DNA from: Spirochaetia bacterium
GTDB lineage: Bacteria > Spirochaetota > Spirochaetia > DAHUYW01
Direction: 5' to 3'
DNA length: 58,443 nt
Assembly: GCA_030041455.1 (NCBI GenBank)
Contig: JASHNV010000150.1
Location: 1 to 58,443, forward strand
Shown here one piece after another: positions 2,660-9,773 of this stretch. The notes under the pieces are model-generated. The model was not told the origin of the DNA. It worked only from the letters and a program-made list of their open reading frames with translations, and did not search any database. A program made the translations under genes and the position numbers. Every line of letters begins with the position of its first letter. Position 1 is the stretch's first letter.

Positions 2660-4039
2660 CTAGTTCCCTCCTTCCGCGGCCGGCCGGGTCGGAGCGGCGC
2701 CGAGGTCGGGACCCTGCGCGAGAATCCGACGCGCAAAGACGAAGAAGCCGACCGTGAGGATCGCGTAGATCACGAACAGGCCGGCGAGCGAGAGATCGAC
2801 CACCCACGCCGCGAGATGGCTCGCCGCGTCGGCGGTCTTGAGCACGCCGTAGATGATCCACGGCTGCCTGCCCTCCTCGCGGGTAAGCCATCCGGCCTCG
2901 ACGGCGATGTAGCCGAGCGGCAGCGACCACATCCACGCCCGAAGGAGCCAGCGATGGCGCTCGACGCGTCCGGGCCTGAGGCGCCCCGCGAGCCACAGCG
3001 TCAAGGTCCAGATCATGACCCCGAGCAGGATGAGCCCGATGAGGACCATGAGACGAAAGCCGTAGAAGGGGATGACGACCGGCGGACGGTCGTCGGCGGG
3101 AAAGTCCTTCAAGCCCTCCACCTTCCCGGTGAGGGTCCTCGTCTCGAGAAGGCTGAGGAGATAGGGGATCTGGATCTGGAAGGAGTTCCGCTCCCGCCCT
3201 CTATCGGGCCAGGCGAGCACGTTGAAGGCGGCGGGCGTCCCGGGCTCGTTCGTTCGCCAGTGCGCCTCGATCGCGGCGAGCTTCGCCGGCTGCTCCTTCG
3301 CGACGGCGAGTCCCTGCGCGTCGCCGAGAAAGACCTGGAGCGGCGTGACGAGGAGCGCGATGGCGAGCGCCGTCTTGAAGCTCTTCAGGAAGAAGCCGGT
3401 TTCCCGCCCCTTCGCGATGTACCAGGCGCTGATTCCTCCCACGACGAAGGCGGTCGTCTCGAGGCAGGCGACCCACATGTGGGTCGTCGCGCTCGCCATG
3501 TCGGGGTTGAAGAGCGCGCGGCCGAAGTCATCGAGAACGAAGCGGCCGTTCACGAAATGCCCGCCCGTCGGGGTCTGCATCCAGGAGTTCGCGACGAGGA
3601 TCCAGAACGCCGAGAGCGACGCTCCGAGGGCGACGAAAATCGTCGAGAGGAGATGGAGCCCCCGCGGGACCCGGTTCCAGCCGAACATCATGATGCCGAG
3701 AAAGCCGGCCTCGAGCATGAAGGCGAGCGTTCCCTCGAAGCCGAGGATGTTCCCGAAGAAGCCGCCCGCGGCCGCGGTGAACGGCTGCCAGTTGGTGCCG
3801 AACTGGAACTCCATGACGAGCCCGGTGGCGACCCCGACCGAGAAATTCAGGATGAGGAGCTTGCTCCAGAAGCGCAGGTGCGCGTAGTAGGCGTCGTCGC
3901 CCGCGGCGATCCAGAGGATCTCGAAGACGACGAGCGTGATGCTCAGGCCCACCGTCAGGGTCGGCCACACGATGTGGTAGCCGACGGTCATGGCAAATTG
4001 GATGCGGGAGAGAAGCACGGTATTCGACAGAAGGTCCAT
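2660..4039 (-). CDS. cydA: Cytochrome bd-type quinol oxidase subunit I
   Basis: This is the 459-residue haem-bearing subunit of the bd oxidase. The N-terminus reads LLSRIQFAMTVGYHIVWP, placing the conserved haem-ligand His at residue 22. The block GREQPAKLAAIE-like (here KEQPAKLAAIEAHW) starts the periplasmic Q loop, where quinol binds, and the late EGRQPWIIYG motif is also typical. At about 459 residues it is shorter than the E. coli enzyme and fits the short-Q-loop type, including the cyanide-insensitive oxidases. The ATG at 4039 follows GAGGTGAAACT. It is encoded between the prenyltransferase gene (27 nt away) and cydB. Confidence 0.95.
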   Translation of the reverse strand: MDLLSNTVLLSRIQFAMTVGYHIVWPTLTVGLSITLVVFEILWIAAGDDAYYAHLRFWSKLLILNFSVGVATGLVMEFQFGTNWQPFTAAAGGFFGNILGFEGTLAFMLEAGFLGIMMFGWNRVPRGLHLLSTIFVALGASLSAFWILVANSWMQTPTGGHFVNGRFVLDDFGRALFNPDMASATTHMWVACLETTAFVVGGISAWYIAKGRETGFFLKSFKTALAIALLVTPLQVFLGDAQGLAVAKEQPAKLAAIEAHWRTNEPGTPAAFNVLAWPDRGRERNSFQIQIPYLLSLLETRTLTGKVEGLKDFPADDRPPVVIPFYGFRLMVLIGLILLGVMIWTLTLWLAGRLRPGRVERHRWLLRAWMWSLPLGYIAVEAGWLTREEGRQPWIIYGVLKTADAASHLAAWVVDLSLAGLFVIYAILTVGFFVFARRILAQGPDLGAAPTRPAAEGGN

Positions 4040-4066: not shown

Positions 4067-5080
4067 CTACTGCGCAAGGAGCCTGCGGATCGCCGTATCG
4101 GCGGCAAGCCCCGCGATGTAGAGGAGTCCGAAACGGCGCGTGTAGACGAACGCCGAACCGACGAACCAGAGCGGCCAGGATTCCTGAGGGTAATCCTCGG
4201 GCCGGGTCTCGGGCCTCGCCCTGCGGTACATCGGGAGCATGACCCGGAAAAACCTCGGCAGCGCGAAGACCACGATCAACACGGCCGGCGTAAAACCGCC
4301 GAAAGCGACGAGACCCCCCACGAGGAGCAGCTGACAGGCGACGAGCGCGATCGCGACCGCGCGCGAGGGCGCCTCGCCGATCACCACCGGCAAGGTGCGG
4401 ACGCCCTTTGCCCGGTCCATGTCGCATTTGTCGATGTGCTTGCCGAAGATGACGAGCGTCGCGCCGATCCCGAAGGGAAGGCTCGCCGCGAAAGCTCCCC
4501 AGTCCCAAACGCCGGTGAGGACGTAGAAGCCGCCTGAGATCATGAGGGGTCCCCACACGATGAGAATCGAGAGCTCGCCGAGCGCGAGGTATTTCAGGGG
4601 CCAGGTGTAGGCAAGGAGAAAGAAGAGCCCCGCGAGCATCAGCGGAAGGGTAAGTCCGCCCCGGTAGGCGACGAGAGCGGCGCCCGCCGCGAGCGCGACG
4701 GCGAGATTGGCGAGGGCGTACGCGAGGAGCGCGCGCTCCGACATGAAGCCCCGGTCGAGGGGATGGGGGCCGTACTGAGCGCGAAAGTAATTCCCGCGGT
4801 CGACGCCCTTCCTGAAGTCGACGTAGTCGTTGAGAAGGTTGTTCGCCGCGTGCGCGAAGACGAGCGCGACGGTGAGCAGGAGCCACACCGCCACGTCGAT
4901 GTTCTCGACGCGGTAGGCGAGGATACCGGCCACGGCGCTTGAGATCAGCGTGAGGATGATCGCGGCGAAGCGCGTCAAGACGAGCCACTTCGAGACGAAG
5001 TCGAGGGCGGCCCACTCGCCGTCCTCGATCCGCGGCATCGCCATCACGGCCTTCGCCCACATTCTCGTGTCGAGTCGCAT
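4067..5080 (-). CDS. UbiA-family membrane prenyltransferase, probably quinone biosynthesis
   Basis: The 337-residue product has about eight or nine membrane helices and both aspartate-rich motifs of the UbiA superfamily: NLLNDYVDFRKGVD (residues 81-94) and HIDKCDMDRAKG (about 205-220). These bind Mg2+-diphosphate and attach a polyprenyl tail to an aromatic acceptor. Its place between a polyprenyl diphosphate synthase and a quinol oxidase argues for menaquinone or ubiquinone synthesis, most likely the MenA-type step. The sequence is not a textbook MenA, so the acceptor is inferred. The start is ATG 5080 with AAGGAAG upstream. Alternatives are haem O or other lipid prenylation. Confidence 0.83.
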   Translation of the reverse strand: MRLDTRMWAKAVMAMPRIEDGEWAALDFVSKWLVLTRFAAIILTLISSAVAGILAYRVENIDVAVWLLLTVALVFAHAANNLLNDYVDFRKGVDRGNYFRAQYGPHPLDRGFMSERALLAYALANLAVALAAGAALVAYRGGLTLPLMLAGLFFLLAYTWPLKYLALGELSILIVWGPLMISGGFYVLTGVWDWGAFAASLPFGIGATLVIFGKHIDKCDMDRAKGVRTLPVVIGEAPSRAVAIALVACQLLLVGGLVAFGGFTPAVLIVVFALPRFFRVMLPMYRRARPETRPEDYPQESWPLWFVGSAFVYTRRFGLLYIAGLAADTAIRRLLAQ

Positions 5081-5132: not shown

Positions 5133-5909
5133 TTACCCGGAGGCGCCGGGCGAAGCGCTATCGGAAGACTTTTTGTTTGAGGAATGGAGCGGGAAGGTCA
5201 TCTTCGCGCCGTACCAGCCGACGACCGAGACCATCGGAAGGAGCGCGAAGATCATGACGAAATAGACGACGCCGGCGCCGGCGAAGGCGTCGGCGATGCG
5301 GGGCTCGGTGAGCCGCCAGATGAAGGCGACGAGCCCGATCACGAACATGGTCGACGATACCGAGATCTTGATGATCACCCCGGGCATCGGACGGGCCATG
5401 TAGTTCAGCCACCAGGTGATCAATCCGGTCGGAATGGCGACGAGACAGAAGAGCAGCCCGCCGGCGAGACAGTTGAGCCCGGTGATCTCGAAGCCCTTCC
5501 TCCCGGTGAGGAGGTACAGCACCATGAAGACCGGAGCCGCGATCATGAACACGATCGGAAAGTGGACCGTCATCGGGTGGGGGTGGCGGCGAAAGAAGGG
5601 ATAGCGGTCCAGGAAACGGTCGACCGCCTGACGGAACGCGCTCTCCTCGGGAGCCTCGACCTTCTCGCGAAGGAGGATACCTACCTGCGGGAAGCGGCCC
5701 AACACGGAGGCGTCGTGCGGCGCCTTGGCAAGCTCCAGGGTCAAGTCCTCCCCCGCGTGGTGCAGGCGCATGTGCTGGCCGTTCTTCCAGAGCTTGCTCG
5801 CGCTCACGTCGATCACCTTGTCCTCGTACGCGACGTAGACCGGCTTTCCGTTCTGCCCATCGTACTCCTTAAGCTCCTCGACGGTGAACTTCCTCAACTC
5901 CTCGGCCAA
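5133..5909 (-). CDS. Cytochrome b5-like domain fused to a DUF2231-type membrane domain
   Basis: The 258-residue protein joins two modules. Residues 5-80 match the cytochrome b5-like haem/steroid-binding fold, with FTVEELKEYDGQNGKPVYVA, then HHAGEDL (His50/51) and a second conserved His at 65 (PHDASVL) as likely haem ligands. Residues 105-240 start HPHPMTVHFPIVF, the DUF2231 signature, and form four membrane helices. The tail is Ser-rich. The start is TTG at 5909, chosen for a strong GGAGGAGGAAC ribosome site. It lies 35 nt after the polyprenyl synthase and 52 nt before the prenyltransferase, inside the oxidase operon, so I infer a membrane electron carrier. The redox partner is unknown. Confidence 0.8.
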   Translation of the reverse strand: MAEELRKFTVEELKEYDGQNGKPVYVAYEDKVIDVSASKLWKNGQHMRLHHAGEDLTLELAKAPHDASVLGRFPQVGILLREKVEAPEESAFRQAVDRFLDRYPFFRRHPHPMTVHFPIVFMIAAPVFMVLYLLTGRKGFEITGLNCLAGGLLFCLVAIPTGLITWWLNYMARPMPGVIIKISVSSTMFVIGLVAFIWRLTEPRIADAFAGAGVVYFVMIFALLPMVSVVGWYGAKMTFPLHSSNKKSSDSASPGASG

Positions 5910-5944
5910 CGTGTTCCTCCTCCTCGCGACGCAGCATCTGGTGC

Positions 5945-6796
5945 CTACGGGAGCTTTACGGTGGCGGACATGTCTTTTTGCACGGACATTGCCACGACGA
6001 GATCGACCATTTCCAGCAGCTTCGATTTGAACACGGAGCCGCCGATCGCCTTCAGCGAGCTCCTCGCACGGTCCGCCGCCTTGAACGCGTAGTCGAGCGA
6101 GAAACCCTCGATCTCGGAAGTCTCGTCGTCAACATAATCATCGACGAGCTGATAGGCAATACCGACGTTCATGCCGAACTCCTCGAGCGCCTGGACCGAG
6201 ACGGCCGTTCCCCCGCATACCCGCGCCCCGGCCTGCGTCGAGACCGCCATGAGGCCCGCGGTCTTCAGCCGGACGATGGTGAGGTAGGTCTCGAAATCGA
6301 GGTTGTCGCCGGGATACAGCTCGTGAATGATCTCGCCCTGACACATTCCGGTCGTTATCCGCGTCACCGGCTCGATGATCTCCGGCGCGAGGTGGCGCGT
6401 GAGGAGATGGAACGCCAGGGAAAACAGCGCGTCCCCCGCGAGGACCGCGACGTGGTTGTTGTAGGTCTTGTTCAGCGTCGGAATGTCGCGCCTGAAGGCG
6501 GCGTCGTCGAGGATGTCGTCGTGGACGAGGCTCGCGTTATGGATCAGCTCGATCGCCGTCGCGAGCTGCACGAGCGCCTCGTCGACGCTCTCGTCGCTTC
6601 GCGTCGCGGCGGCGCGCCCCGAGAGGATGGCGAGGGCAGGACGCAGGAGCTTGCCTCGCGCCTGGAAGATATAGTCGACGATCTTGTTGACGACCTTGTT
6701 CTCGGTCTTGACTTGCTTTCGAATGTTCCGTTGGACGCGCGAGAGCTCGGGGAGGATCGGCTGGTAGATGATCTCGATCGTGTTCTTCTTCGGCAT
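5945..6796 (-). CDS. Trans-polyprenyl diphosphate synthase (quinone side chain)
   Basis: This 283-residue protein belongs to the IspA/IspB-type all-alpha isoprenyl diphosphate synthases, which elongate allylic diphosphates with IPP. The first Asp-rich motif is HDDILDD (about residue 80); the second is QLVDDYVDD (about residue 210), and the early GKLLRP block binds IPP. The residues upstream of the first Asp motif are ASLV, small side chains that fit a long-chain product. The ATG at 6796 has AGGGAA upstream; an ORF extension to 6844 crosses the promoter and is rejected. It is the first gene of the operon, so it likely makes the tail used by the prenyltransferase encoded downstream. Confidence 0.88.
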   Translation of the reverse strand: MPKKNTIEIIYQPILPELSRVQRNIRKQVKTENKVVNKIVDYIFQARGKLLRPALAILSGRAAATRSDESVDEALVQLATAIELIHNASLVHDDILDDAAFRRDIPTLNKTYNNHVAVLAGDALFSLAFHLLTRHLAPEIIEPVTRITTGMCQGEIIHELYPGDNLDFETYLTIVRLKTAGLMAVSTQAGARVCGGTAVSVQALEEFGMNVGIAYQLVDDYVDDETSEIEGFSLDYAFKAADRARSSLKAIGGSVFKSKLLEMVDLVVAMSVQKDMSATVKLP

Positions 6797-6815
6797 GCCA
6801 CGTTCCCTAGGCGTC

Positions 6816-6844
6816 TTTATACCATGGCGTCCCCGGAAATACAA
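6816..6844 (-). promoter_or_regulatory. Promoter of the quinone/bd-oxidase operon
   Basis: Reading leftward, TTGTAT (6844-6839), 17-nt spacer, TATAAA (6821-6816). The leader to the ATG at 6796 would be about 13 nt. All five genes down to cydB follow on the same strand with short gaps, so this is the likely main promoter. Confidence 0.6.
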
Positions 6845-8108: not shown

Positions 8109-9773
8109 ATGGCCAAGGAAGAGAGCGGCAAGCCGCTCATCGTGCAGAGCGACAACACCCTGCTGCTCGACGTGCACGCCGAAGGCTTCGAAGAGGCGCG
8201 AGGCGCCATCTCGGCGTTCGCCGAGCTCGAGAAATCCCCCGAGCATATCCACACCTACCGCATGTCTCCCCTGAGCCTGTGGAACGCCGCCTCCGCCGGC
8301 CTGAGCGCGGAGGACGTCGCGACGCGGCTGCGGACATGGTCGCGTTTCGCGCTGCCTGAGAACATCCTCTTCTCGATCCGCGAGACGATCTCGAGATTCG
8401 GCAAGCTGAGGCTGCTCGGTACCGCCGAGAGCGATCGGCTGTTTCTCGAAGTCGGAGACGGCGCGATCCTCGCGGAGATCAAGGGCCTGAAGCGACTCGA
8501 GCGATACCTCGCGCCCGACGACGGCGGATTCTACCTCCGCCTCATCGATCGGGGAACCGTGAAGCAGGAGCTCACGAGAATCGGCTACCCGGTGAAGGAC
8601 GAGGCGCCGCTCGCCCGGGGCGAGCCGATCGAGATCGCCTTCCGCGATACCACGGCGAGCGGCTTCAAGTTCGCGGTGCGCGACTACCAGTCGGAGGCGG
8701 CTAGGGCGTTCAACGGCGACGGAGCGCCGGGAAGCGGCTTCGGCACGGTGGTGCTTCCCTGCGGGGCGGGCAAGACCGTGGTCGGGATGGCGATCATGGA
8801 GCTCTTGAAGACTAGCACGCTCATCCTCTCGACCAACGTCGCCGCGGTCCACCAGTGGATCGACGAGCTCGTCGACAAGACCTCGCTCGGCCCGGCGGAC
8901 ATCGGAGAGTACTCAGGCGACCGCAAGGAGATCAGGCCCGTCACGGTCTGCACCTACCAGGTCCTCACGTGGTCGCGGGAGAAGGACGGCGACTTCCCGC
9001 ACTTTAAGGTCTTCCGCGAGCGGAACTGGGGCCTCATCATCTACGACGAGGTCCACCTCCTGCCGGCGCCGGTCTTCCGGGTGACCGCCGAGCTTCAGGC
9101 GGTGAGGCGCGTAGGCCTGACCGCGACGCTCGTGCGCGAGGACGGAAGGGAAGACGACGTCTTCTCGCTCGTCGGACCGAAGCGCTACGACGTCCCCTGG
9201 AAGGAGCTTGAGGCGAAGGGATGGATCGCGGAGGCGAACTGCTACGAAGTCCGGGTCTCCTTGCCCGAGGAGCTTCGCATTCCGTACGCCGTCGCGGAGA
9301 AGCGCCAGAAGTTCCGCATCGCCGCCGAGAACCCGCTGAAGCTCGACATCGCGAGACAGTTGATCGAGAACCATCCCGAAGACGCGATCATGGTGATCGG
9401 GCAGTACCTCAACCAGCTCGGCGAGATCGCGCGGGCGATCCAGGCTCCCCTCATCACCGGCCAAACGTCGAACCCGGAGCGAGAGCGCATCTACGACGAT
9501 TTCCGGGCGGGGCGCGTGCGGGTGATCGTCGTTTCCAAGGTCGCCAATTTCGCGATCGACCTGCCCGACGCCTCCGTCGCGATCCAGGTCTCGGGAACCT
9601 TCGGCTCCCGCCAGGAGGAGGCGCAGCGCCTCGGGCGCATTTTGCGGCCGAAGGAGCGGAACTCCTATTTCTACTCGGTCGTCTCGCGCGCCACCGTCGA
9701 GGAGGAGTTCTCGGCGAACCGCCAGAAGTTCCTCACCGAACAGGGGTACAAGTACCACATCGAGGCCTGGTAG
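8109..9773 (+). CDS. XPB/Ssl2-family DNA helicase (superfamily 2)
   Basis: This 554-residue protein is a bacterial XPB/Rad25-like helicase, a 3'-5' SF2 translocase tied to DNA repair. The N-terminal 180 residues match the XPB damage-recognition-like region. The Walker A motif is PCGAGKT (about 216), the Walker B is YDEVHLL (about 313; XPB proteins use DEVH), motif III is GLTATLVRED, and motif VI is QRLGRILRPK (about 509). It starts at ATG 8109 just after its own promoter. The next gene encodes the helicase-associated partner that usually accompanies these enzymes. XPB is found in actinobacteria and in spirochaetes such as Treponema, and in few other bacteria. Confidence 0.93.
   Translation: MAKEESGKPLIVQSDNTLLLDVHAEGFEEARGAISAFAELEKSPEHIHTYRMSPLSLWNAASAGLSAEDVATRLRTWSRFALPENILFSIRETISRFGKLRLLGTAESDRLFLEVGDGAILAEIKGLKRLERYLAPDDGGFYLRLIDRGTVKQELTRIGYPVKDEAPLARGEPIEIAFRDTTASGFKFAVRDYQSEAARAFNGDGAPGSGFGTVVLPCGAGKTVVGMAIMELLKTSTLILSTNVAAVHQWIDELVDKTSLGPADIGEYSGDRKEIRPVTVCTYQVLTWSREKDGDFPHFKVFRERNWGLIIYDEVHLLPAPVFRVTAELQAVRRVGLTATLVREDGREDDVFSLVGPKRYDVPWKELEAKGWIAEANCYEVRVSLPEELRIPYAVAEKRQKFRIAAENPLKLDIARQLIENHPEDAIMVIGQYLNQLGEIARAIQAPLITGQTSNPERERIYDDFRAGRVRVIVVSKVANFAIDLPDASVAIQVSGTFGSRQEEAQRLGRILRPKERNSYFYSVVSRATVEEEFSANRQKFLTEQGYKYHIEAW

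Follow-up and report, generated by a model that had tools for sequence, protein, structure and literature searches.

Classical cytochrome b5 (1JEX) carries its first axial haem histidine in an HPGG motif and has a second axial histidine, and proteins of the MAPR family, such as PGRMC1, ligate haem through a tyrosinate (PMC10093951). Two archaeal b5 proteins, from Hadesarchaea (6NZX) and Methanococcoides burtonii (6VZ6), have been solved as chains of 78 residues which, unlike the protein described here, have no DUF2231 membrane part; no papers on these two proteins were found in the literature searched. DUF2231 is a widespread membrane domain (also listed as PF09990 and COG4892); the literature searched gave isolated mentions of it, but neither a function nor any functional account.

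The window, the whole stretch of DNA analysed (58,443 nucleotides of contig JASHNV010000150.1, from the draft genome G000 of a Spirochaetia bacterium, 95% complete), encodes a b5-DUF2231 fusion protein of 258 aa at positions 5133-5909 of the minus strand. The gene has a TTG start, and a strong ribosome-binding-site-like sequence, AGGAGGAGGAA (5914-5924, minus strand), is located just 5' of it. As claimed in an earlier note on this DNA, a b5 domain and a four-helix DUF2231 domain share one reading frame in the 258-aa ORF, both with Pfam scores above the cut-offs: PF00173 (Cyt-b5) at aa 9-69 (E 7e-6, 26.4 bits against a cut-off of 23.7) and PF09990 (DUF2231) at aa 111-239 (E 6e-15, 55.9 bits against 26.4). 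The fusion is not a chance event or a frameshift artefact, because a paralogue that is 68% identical and likewise fused is encoded on another contig of the window genome (flanked by HSP20 and carboxymuconolactone-decarboxylase-family genes), and full-length homologues are present in dozens of genomes. An AlphaFold2 model built with 28 homologues (mean pLDDT 85.9, pTM 0.71) includes a folded b5 head. The earlier note had called the protein probably new; this holds for the literature searched, in which no functional paper was found, but not for the public genomes, in which the two domains and their fusion are already present and widespread: the fusion is an established family.

The cytochrome b5-like domain (5673-5897, minus strand; aa 5-79) matches the fold of both archaeal proteins, in its sequence as well as in its predicted structure. 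Foldseek against the PDB gave, for the predicted head, a TM-score of 0.96 with 6NZX (rmsd 0.8 A, 53% identity) and of 0.94 with 6VZ6 (47% identity in the structural alignment), both scores normalised by the solved protein, and the two structures have in common with the head its fold and the positions of His46, His50 and His65. These three residues (5772-5774, 5760-5762 and 5715-5717, all on the minus strand) are invariant in all the true b5 fusions aligned; just two proteins of the set departed from this, and both proved to be rubredoxin fusions. His50 and His65 were among the residues named in the earlier note; His51, named with them, is variable, and the equally invariant His46 had been overlooked. 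His65 aligns with the second axial histidine of 1JEX. In place of the HPGG motif that holds the first axial histidine of classical b5, the head has a loop with His46 and His50, both candidate axial ligands. A haem would most likely be held between His65 and one of His46 and His50, the choice of first axial ligand being a guess, because the head lacks the classical HPGG motif. The head is also detectably related, by sequence and by fold, to the MAPR family (PGRMC1) and to the plant proteins 1T0G and 1J03, but MAPR proteins use a tyrosine where the fusion family has three invariant histidines. Membership of the MAPR subclass was rejected: there is no conserved tyrosine in the ligand loop of the head, and histidine is invariant instead.

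The DUF2231 domain (5193-5579, minus strand; aa 111-239) is modelled by AlphaFold2 with four membrane helices, at aa 112-135, 138-170, 176-201 and 212-238. The HPHPMTVHFP motif (5556-5585, minus strand) is located at the predicted cytoplasmic end of helix 1; it had been read as a conserved histidine pair, and it is indeed conserved, with three invariant histidines rather than a mere pair (His109, His111 and His116, in 66 of 66 aligned proteins). The invariant or nearly invariant residues of the alignment comprise these three histidines, Pro112, Gly162, Trp166, Asn169, Lys181, Gly234 and Pro240. Mapped on the model, the conserved residues of the membrane domain occupy the ends of the helices that are on the same side as the N-terminal head. 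This side is enriched in Lys and Arg (averages of 3.2 in the N-terminal flank and 3.4 in loop 2, compared with 0.6 and 1.3 on the opposite side), and consequently the conserved site would face the cytoplasm, as would the b5 head, an orientation taken only from the positive-inside (charge) rule. Across the 66 sequences, helices 2-4 have no conserved histidines, which leaves a bis-His haem within the membrane bundle unsupported; likewise unsupported is the second haem site that the earlier note implied for DUF2231, all the invariant histidines being at one end of helix 1 and having no bis-His partner. A membrane di-haem cytochrome b of the b561-like type was discarded for want of histidine pairs across the helices and of a significant fold match.

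In the window, the fusion gene is the second of five genes which follow each other on the minus strand and probably form an operon: a polyprenyl diphosphate synthase family gene (5945-6844), which comes first; the fusion; a UbiA-family prenyltransferase gene (4067-5080), MenA-like and below every NCBIfam cut-off; CydA, the cytochrome bd quinol oxidase subunit I (2660-4039); and CydB, subunit II of the same oxidase (1657-2736), whose true start is probably inside the listed ORF. The gaps among the first four genes are 35, 52 and 27 nt. A scan for consensus promoters across this operon found nothing. The window also has, on the plus strand, an N6/N4 DNA methyltransferase gene (PF01555; 689-1672), an ORF of 173 aa without a Pfam match just upstream of it (155-676), and a gene for an XPB/RAD25-like helicase (8109-9773).

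The genes located within 5 kb of the fusion were counted in 67 non-redundant b5-DUF2231 loci, which are related to each other, so that the counts are not independent. UbiA or UbiE genes were found in 28 of the 67 loci, an NrfD/molybdopterin (Act-like) complex in 13, and cydA/cydB in nine; 40 loci have at least one of UbiA/UbiE, CydAB or an NrfD-type complex, and the remaining 27 have none of them. The gene orders include cydA-cydB-fusion, consecutive on one strand (L037, L166); fusion-UbiA-UbiE, also consecutive on one strand (L183, L184, L186); UbiA-family genes directly upstream of the fusion (L185, L187); UbiA-fusion with convergent UbiE genes (L019, L155, L159, L162); and NrfD/molybdopterin genes adjoining a cbb3-type oxidase (L021). 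Parsimony requires at least 11 changes of the Ubi linkage on the gene tree and eight each of the Cyd and NrfD linkages, which indicates that these links were gained or lost repeatedly; linkage to cydAB appears in five separate places on the tree, the window included. An obligate subunit of cytochrome bd was rejected as a candidate, since the linkage is not constant and cydAB is near in so few of the loci. The UbiA neighbours belong mostly to one cluster (c1); those of its members that were tested fall far short of every NCBIfam cut-off. A methyl-plastoquinone route is not claimed: the best NCBIfam match of the UbiE of L019 was MpqE, at 294.6 bits, below the 335-bit cut-off, and the two UbiE proteins of the window genome have MpqE scores far below those of the L019 protein. 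Two further arrangements were observed. At L024, L026 and L034, and probably also at L020, the gene immediately before the b5 fusion encodes a second DUF2231 protein, without a head, which suggests a possible two-subunit form. In Solidesulfovibrio and Desulfovibrio (L035, L038, L039, L041-L044), a phosphatase-like gene and a response-regulator gene are followed by the fusion, with a 4-nt overlap in several of the loci; in Solidesulfovibrio, a histidine kinase adjoins the pair.

In the nearest DUF2231 relatives of the fusion (L191-L202, Desulfobacterota), the b5 head is replaced by a rubredoxin-like Cys4 domain (RUBY_RBDX matches in L191-L193 with E 1e-14 to 1e-16; two such heads in L200). Their membrane domains have the HPxxxHxP motif as in the fusion and, in most cases, the Trp, the Lys and a Gly-rich stretch (GG) close to the end of helix 4. 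That a single membrane domain carries redox heads of two unrelated kinds is the strongest individual reason to think that the head serves in electron transfer, although the metal of the rubredoxin-like heads could be structural zinc and not redox iron. Around the 18 loci whose DUF2231 protein lacks a b5 head (L191-L208), the stretches examined contained no UbiA, UbiE or Cyd genes, whereas about half of the b5 fusions have Ubi or Cyd neighbours (Fisher p 1.6e-4, indicative only, the loci being related). This association with quinone genes, peculiar to the b5 form, is the strongest argument for a link to quinones, and it makes the family, with its b5 or rubredoxin-like heads, a testable case of DUF2231 as an electron-transfer docking domain. 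Nitrospirota (Nitrospiria) also encode CopD-type proteins with the same type of b5 head on a membrane bundle (L051, L052), but these differ from the fusion in having a CopD membrane domain, no DUF2231 and a different gene order.

Since the family adjoins genes making and using respiratory quinones, the protein probably carries electrons in the respiratory chain. In its full form, the reading that we prefer is that of a membrane-tethered b-type cytochrome of a quinone-linked respiratory chain, for which we infer the haem, the quinone contact and the partners, and whose chances we put at about even. The N-terminal head would bind one haem b in the cytoplasm, through His65 and either His46 or His50; the DUF2231 four-helix bundle would act as anchor and present its conserved site where the membrane meets the cytoplasm. 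This putative site (His109, His111, His116, Trp166, Asn169, Lys181) would meet a quinone or quinol, or a quinone-handling partner, and the head would shuttle electrons, in a presumed direction, between the membrane face and a redox partner in the cytoplasm; the cells concerned would respire through a cytochrome bd oxidase or use a quinol complex of the NrfD/Act type. Searches of the PDB with Foldseek for structural kin of the membrane bundle gave weak helical-bundle matches only (E above 0.1); because the membrane domain has no significant solved-structure match, its quinone contact would be without structural precedent among solved structures. The varied neighbourhoods, that of the paralogue in the window genome included, also count against this reading, as does the missing HPGG motif. 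The earlier note had proposed, from the operon position, that electrons pass between the quinone pool and another partner, and this is plausible, given the adjoining cydAB; the quinone link gains support beyond what the note could draw on from the Ubi, Cyd or NrfD-type neighbours in 40 of the 67 loci and from the rubredoxin-like head of the sister proteins.

The chief rival, possible at a modest probability, is that the fusion is a redox partner in quinone making, its b5 head giving or taking electrons during the tailoring of the prenylated ring produced by UbiA/UbiE. UbiA/UbiE are the commonest neighbours of the family, well ahead of cydAB, UbiA is often directly adjacent, three loci have the fusion, UbiA and UbiE in a row on one strand, and the window fusion is placed between a polyprenyl synthase gene and a UbiA gene. 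Against it, no recurring desaturase, hydroxylase or P450-like neighbour was seen, many loci have respiratory complexes without UbiA, and we know of no b5-dependent step in the menaquinone or ubiquinone routes. The present data do not separate quinone making from an electron shuttle.

An unlikely alternative is that the fusion, instead of shuttling electrons, holds haem and delivers it to b-type proteins such as cytochrome bd, a role that has been proposed for certain MAPR proteins of eukaryotes. The alignment of the head with the MAPR-like 1T0G and 1J03 is consistent with such haem handling, as are the invariant histidines at the membrane face, which could pass haem on, the three haems that CydAB requires, and a DUF2231 gene located near a haem O synthase gene in the window genome. 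Against it, cydAB is near in only nine of the 67 loci, and the rubredoxin-like head of the sister proteins would be needless in a haem chaperone. We hold equally improbable that the protein is an oxygen-induced membrane redox sensor or repair factor, which would have respiratory neighbours through shared regulation only. The Solidesulfovibrio gene, which overlaps or follows the pair of phosphatase-like and response-regulator genes and has a histidine kinase gene beside it, and the paralogue located between HSP20 and carboxymuconolactone-decarboxylase-family genes are in agreement with this, but the regulator pair is missing from most loci, and the neighbours that recur across lineages are enzymatic quinone genes, not regulators. 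Finally, the Pfam Cyt-b5 score, barely above the cut-off, and the absence of HPGG could mean that the head is a structural or ligand-binding remnant and no haem protein, which is very improbable given that every true b5 fusion has the three histidines, as do 6NZX and 6VZ6, and that the fold match is so close.

With regard to the origin of the quinone, neither MqnA/MqnD (PF02621) nor MenB (TIGR01929) was found in the window genome, which encodes five UbiA-family proteins, two UbiE-like proteins and two CydA proteins; among the other fusion genomes searched for both, two (G198, G201) likewise gave no PF02621 and no MenB above or near the cut-off. These three genomes may have an undescribed quinone source, or the genes may have been lost in gaps of the draft assemblies. 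On another contig of the window genome (C118; locus L064, 3883-6987), a c1-type UbiA gene is followed by two UbiE-like methyltransferase genes, without the fusion. The same UbiA-UbiE-UbiE trio adjoins the fusion in many Desulfobacterota, and the analysis thus points to an unassigned gene module of UbiA and UbiE in that phylum. It is conceivable, albeit doubtful, that the fusion is the redox part of an undescribed system for a quinone or quinone-like lipid, made up of an unassigned UbiA prenyltransferase, one or two UbiE-like methyltransferases and the b5-DUF2231 protein, and passing electrons to cytochrome bd or to complexes of the NrfD/Act type.

The 35 relatives found in a genome scan came for the most part from Desulfobacterota, with a few from Spirochaetes, Deferribacteraceae and others. 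Among 395 sampled genomes of Desulfobacterota, the phylum of Solidesulfovibrio (locus L038), near full-length b5-DUF2231 fusions were present in about 41. To our knowledge, oxygen-linked respiration via cytochrome bd is still poorly understood in these bacteria. A tree of 68 fusions places the window fusion and the paralogue within the Desulfobacterota sequences. A transfer of the gene from this phylum may plausibly have occurred. A viral origin was rejected, as the scan of viral contigs found no relative. The window genome has, in addition, a gene for a DOMON-domain protein convergent to a standalone DUF2231 gene (L061, contig C161; 9157-9867 and 10017-10538), with a haem O synthase gene nearby, which is possibly another pairing of a haem domain with DUF2231.
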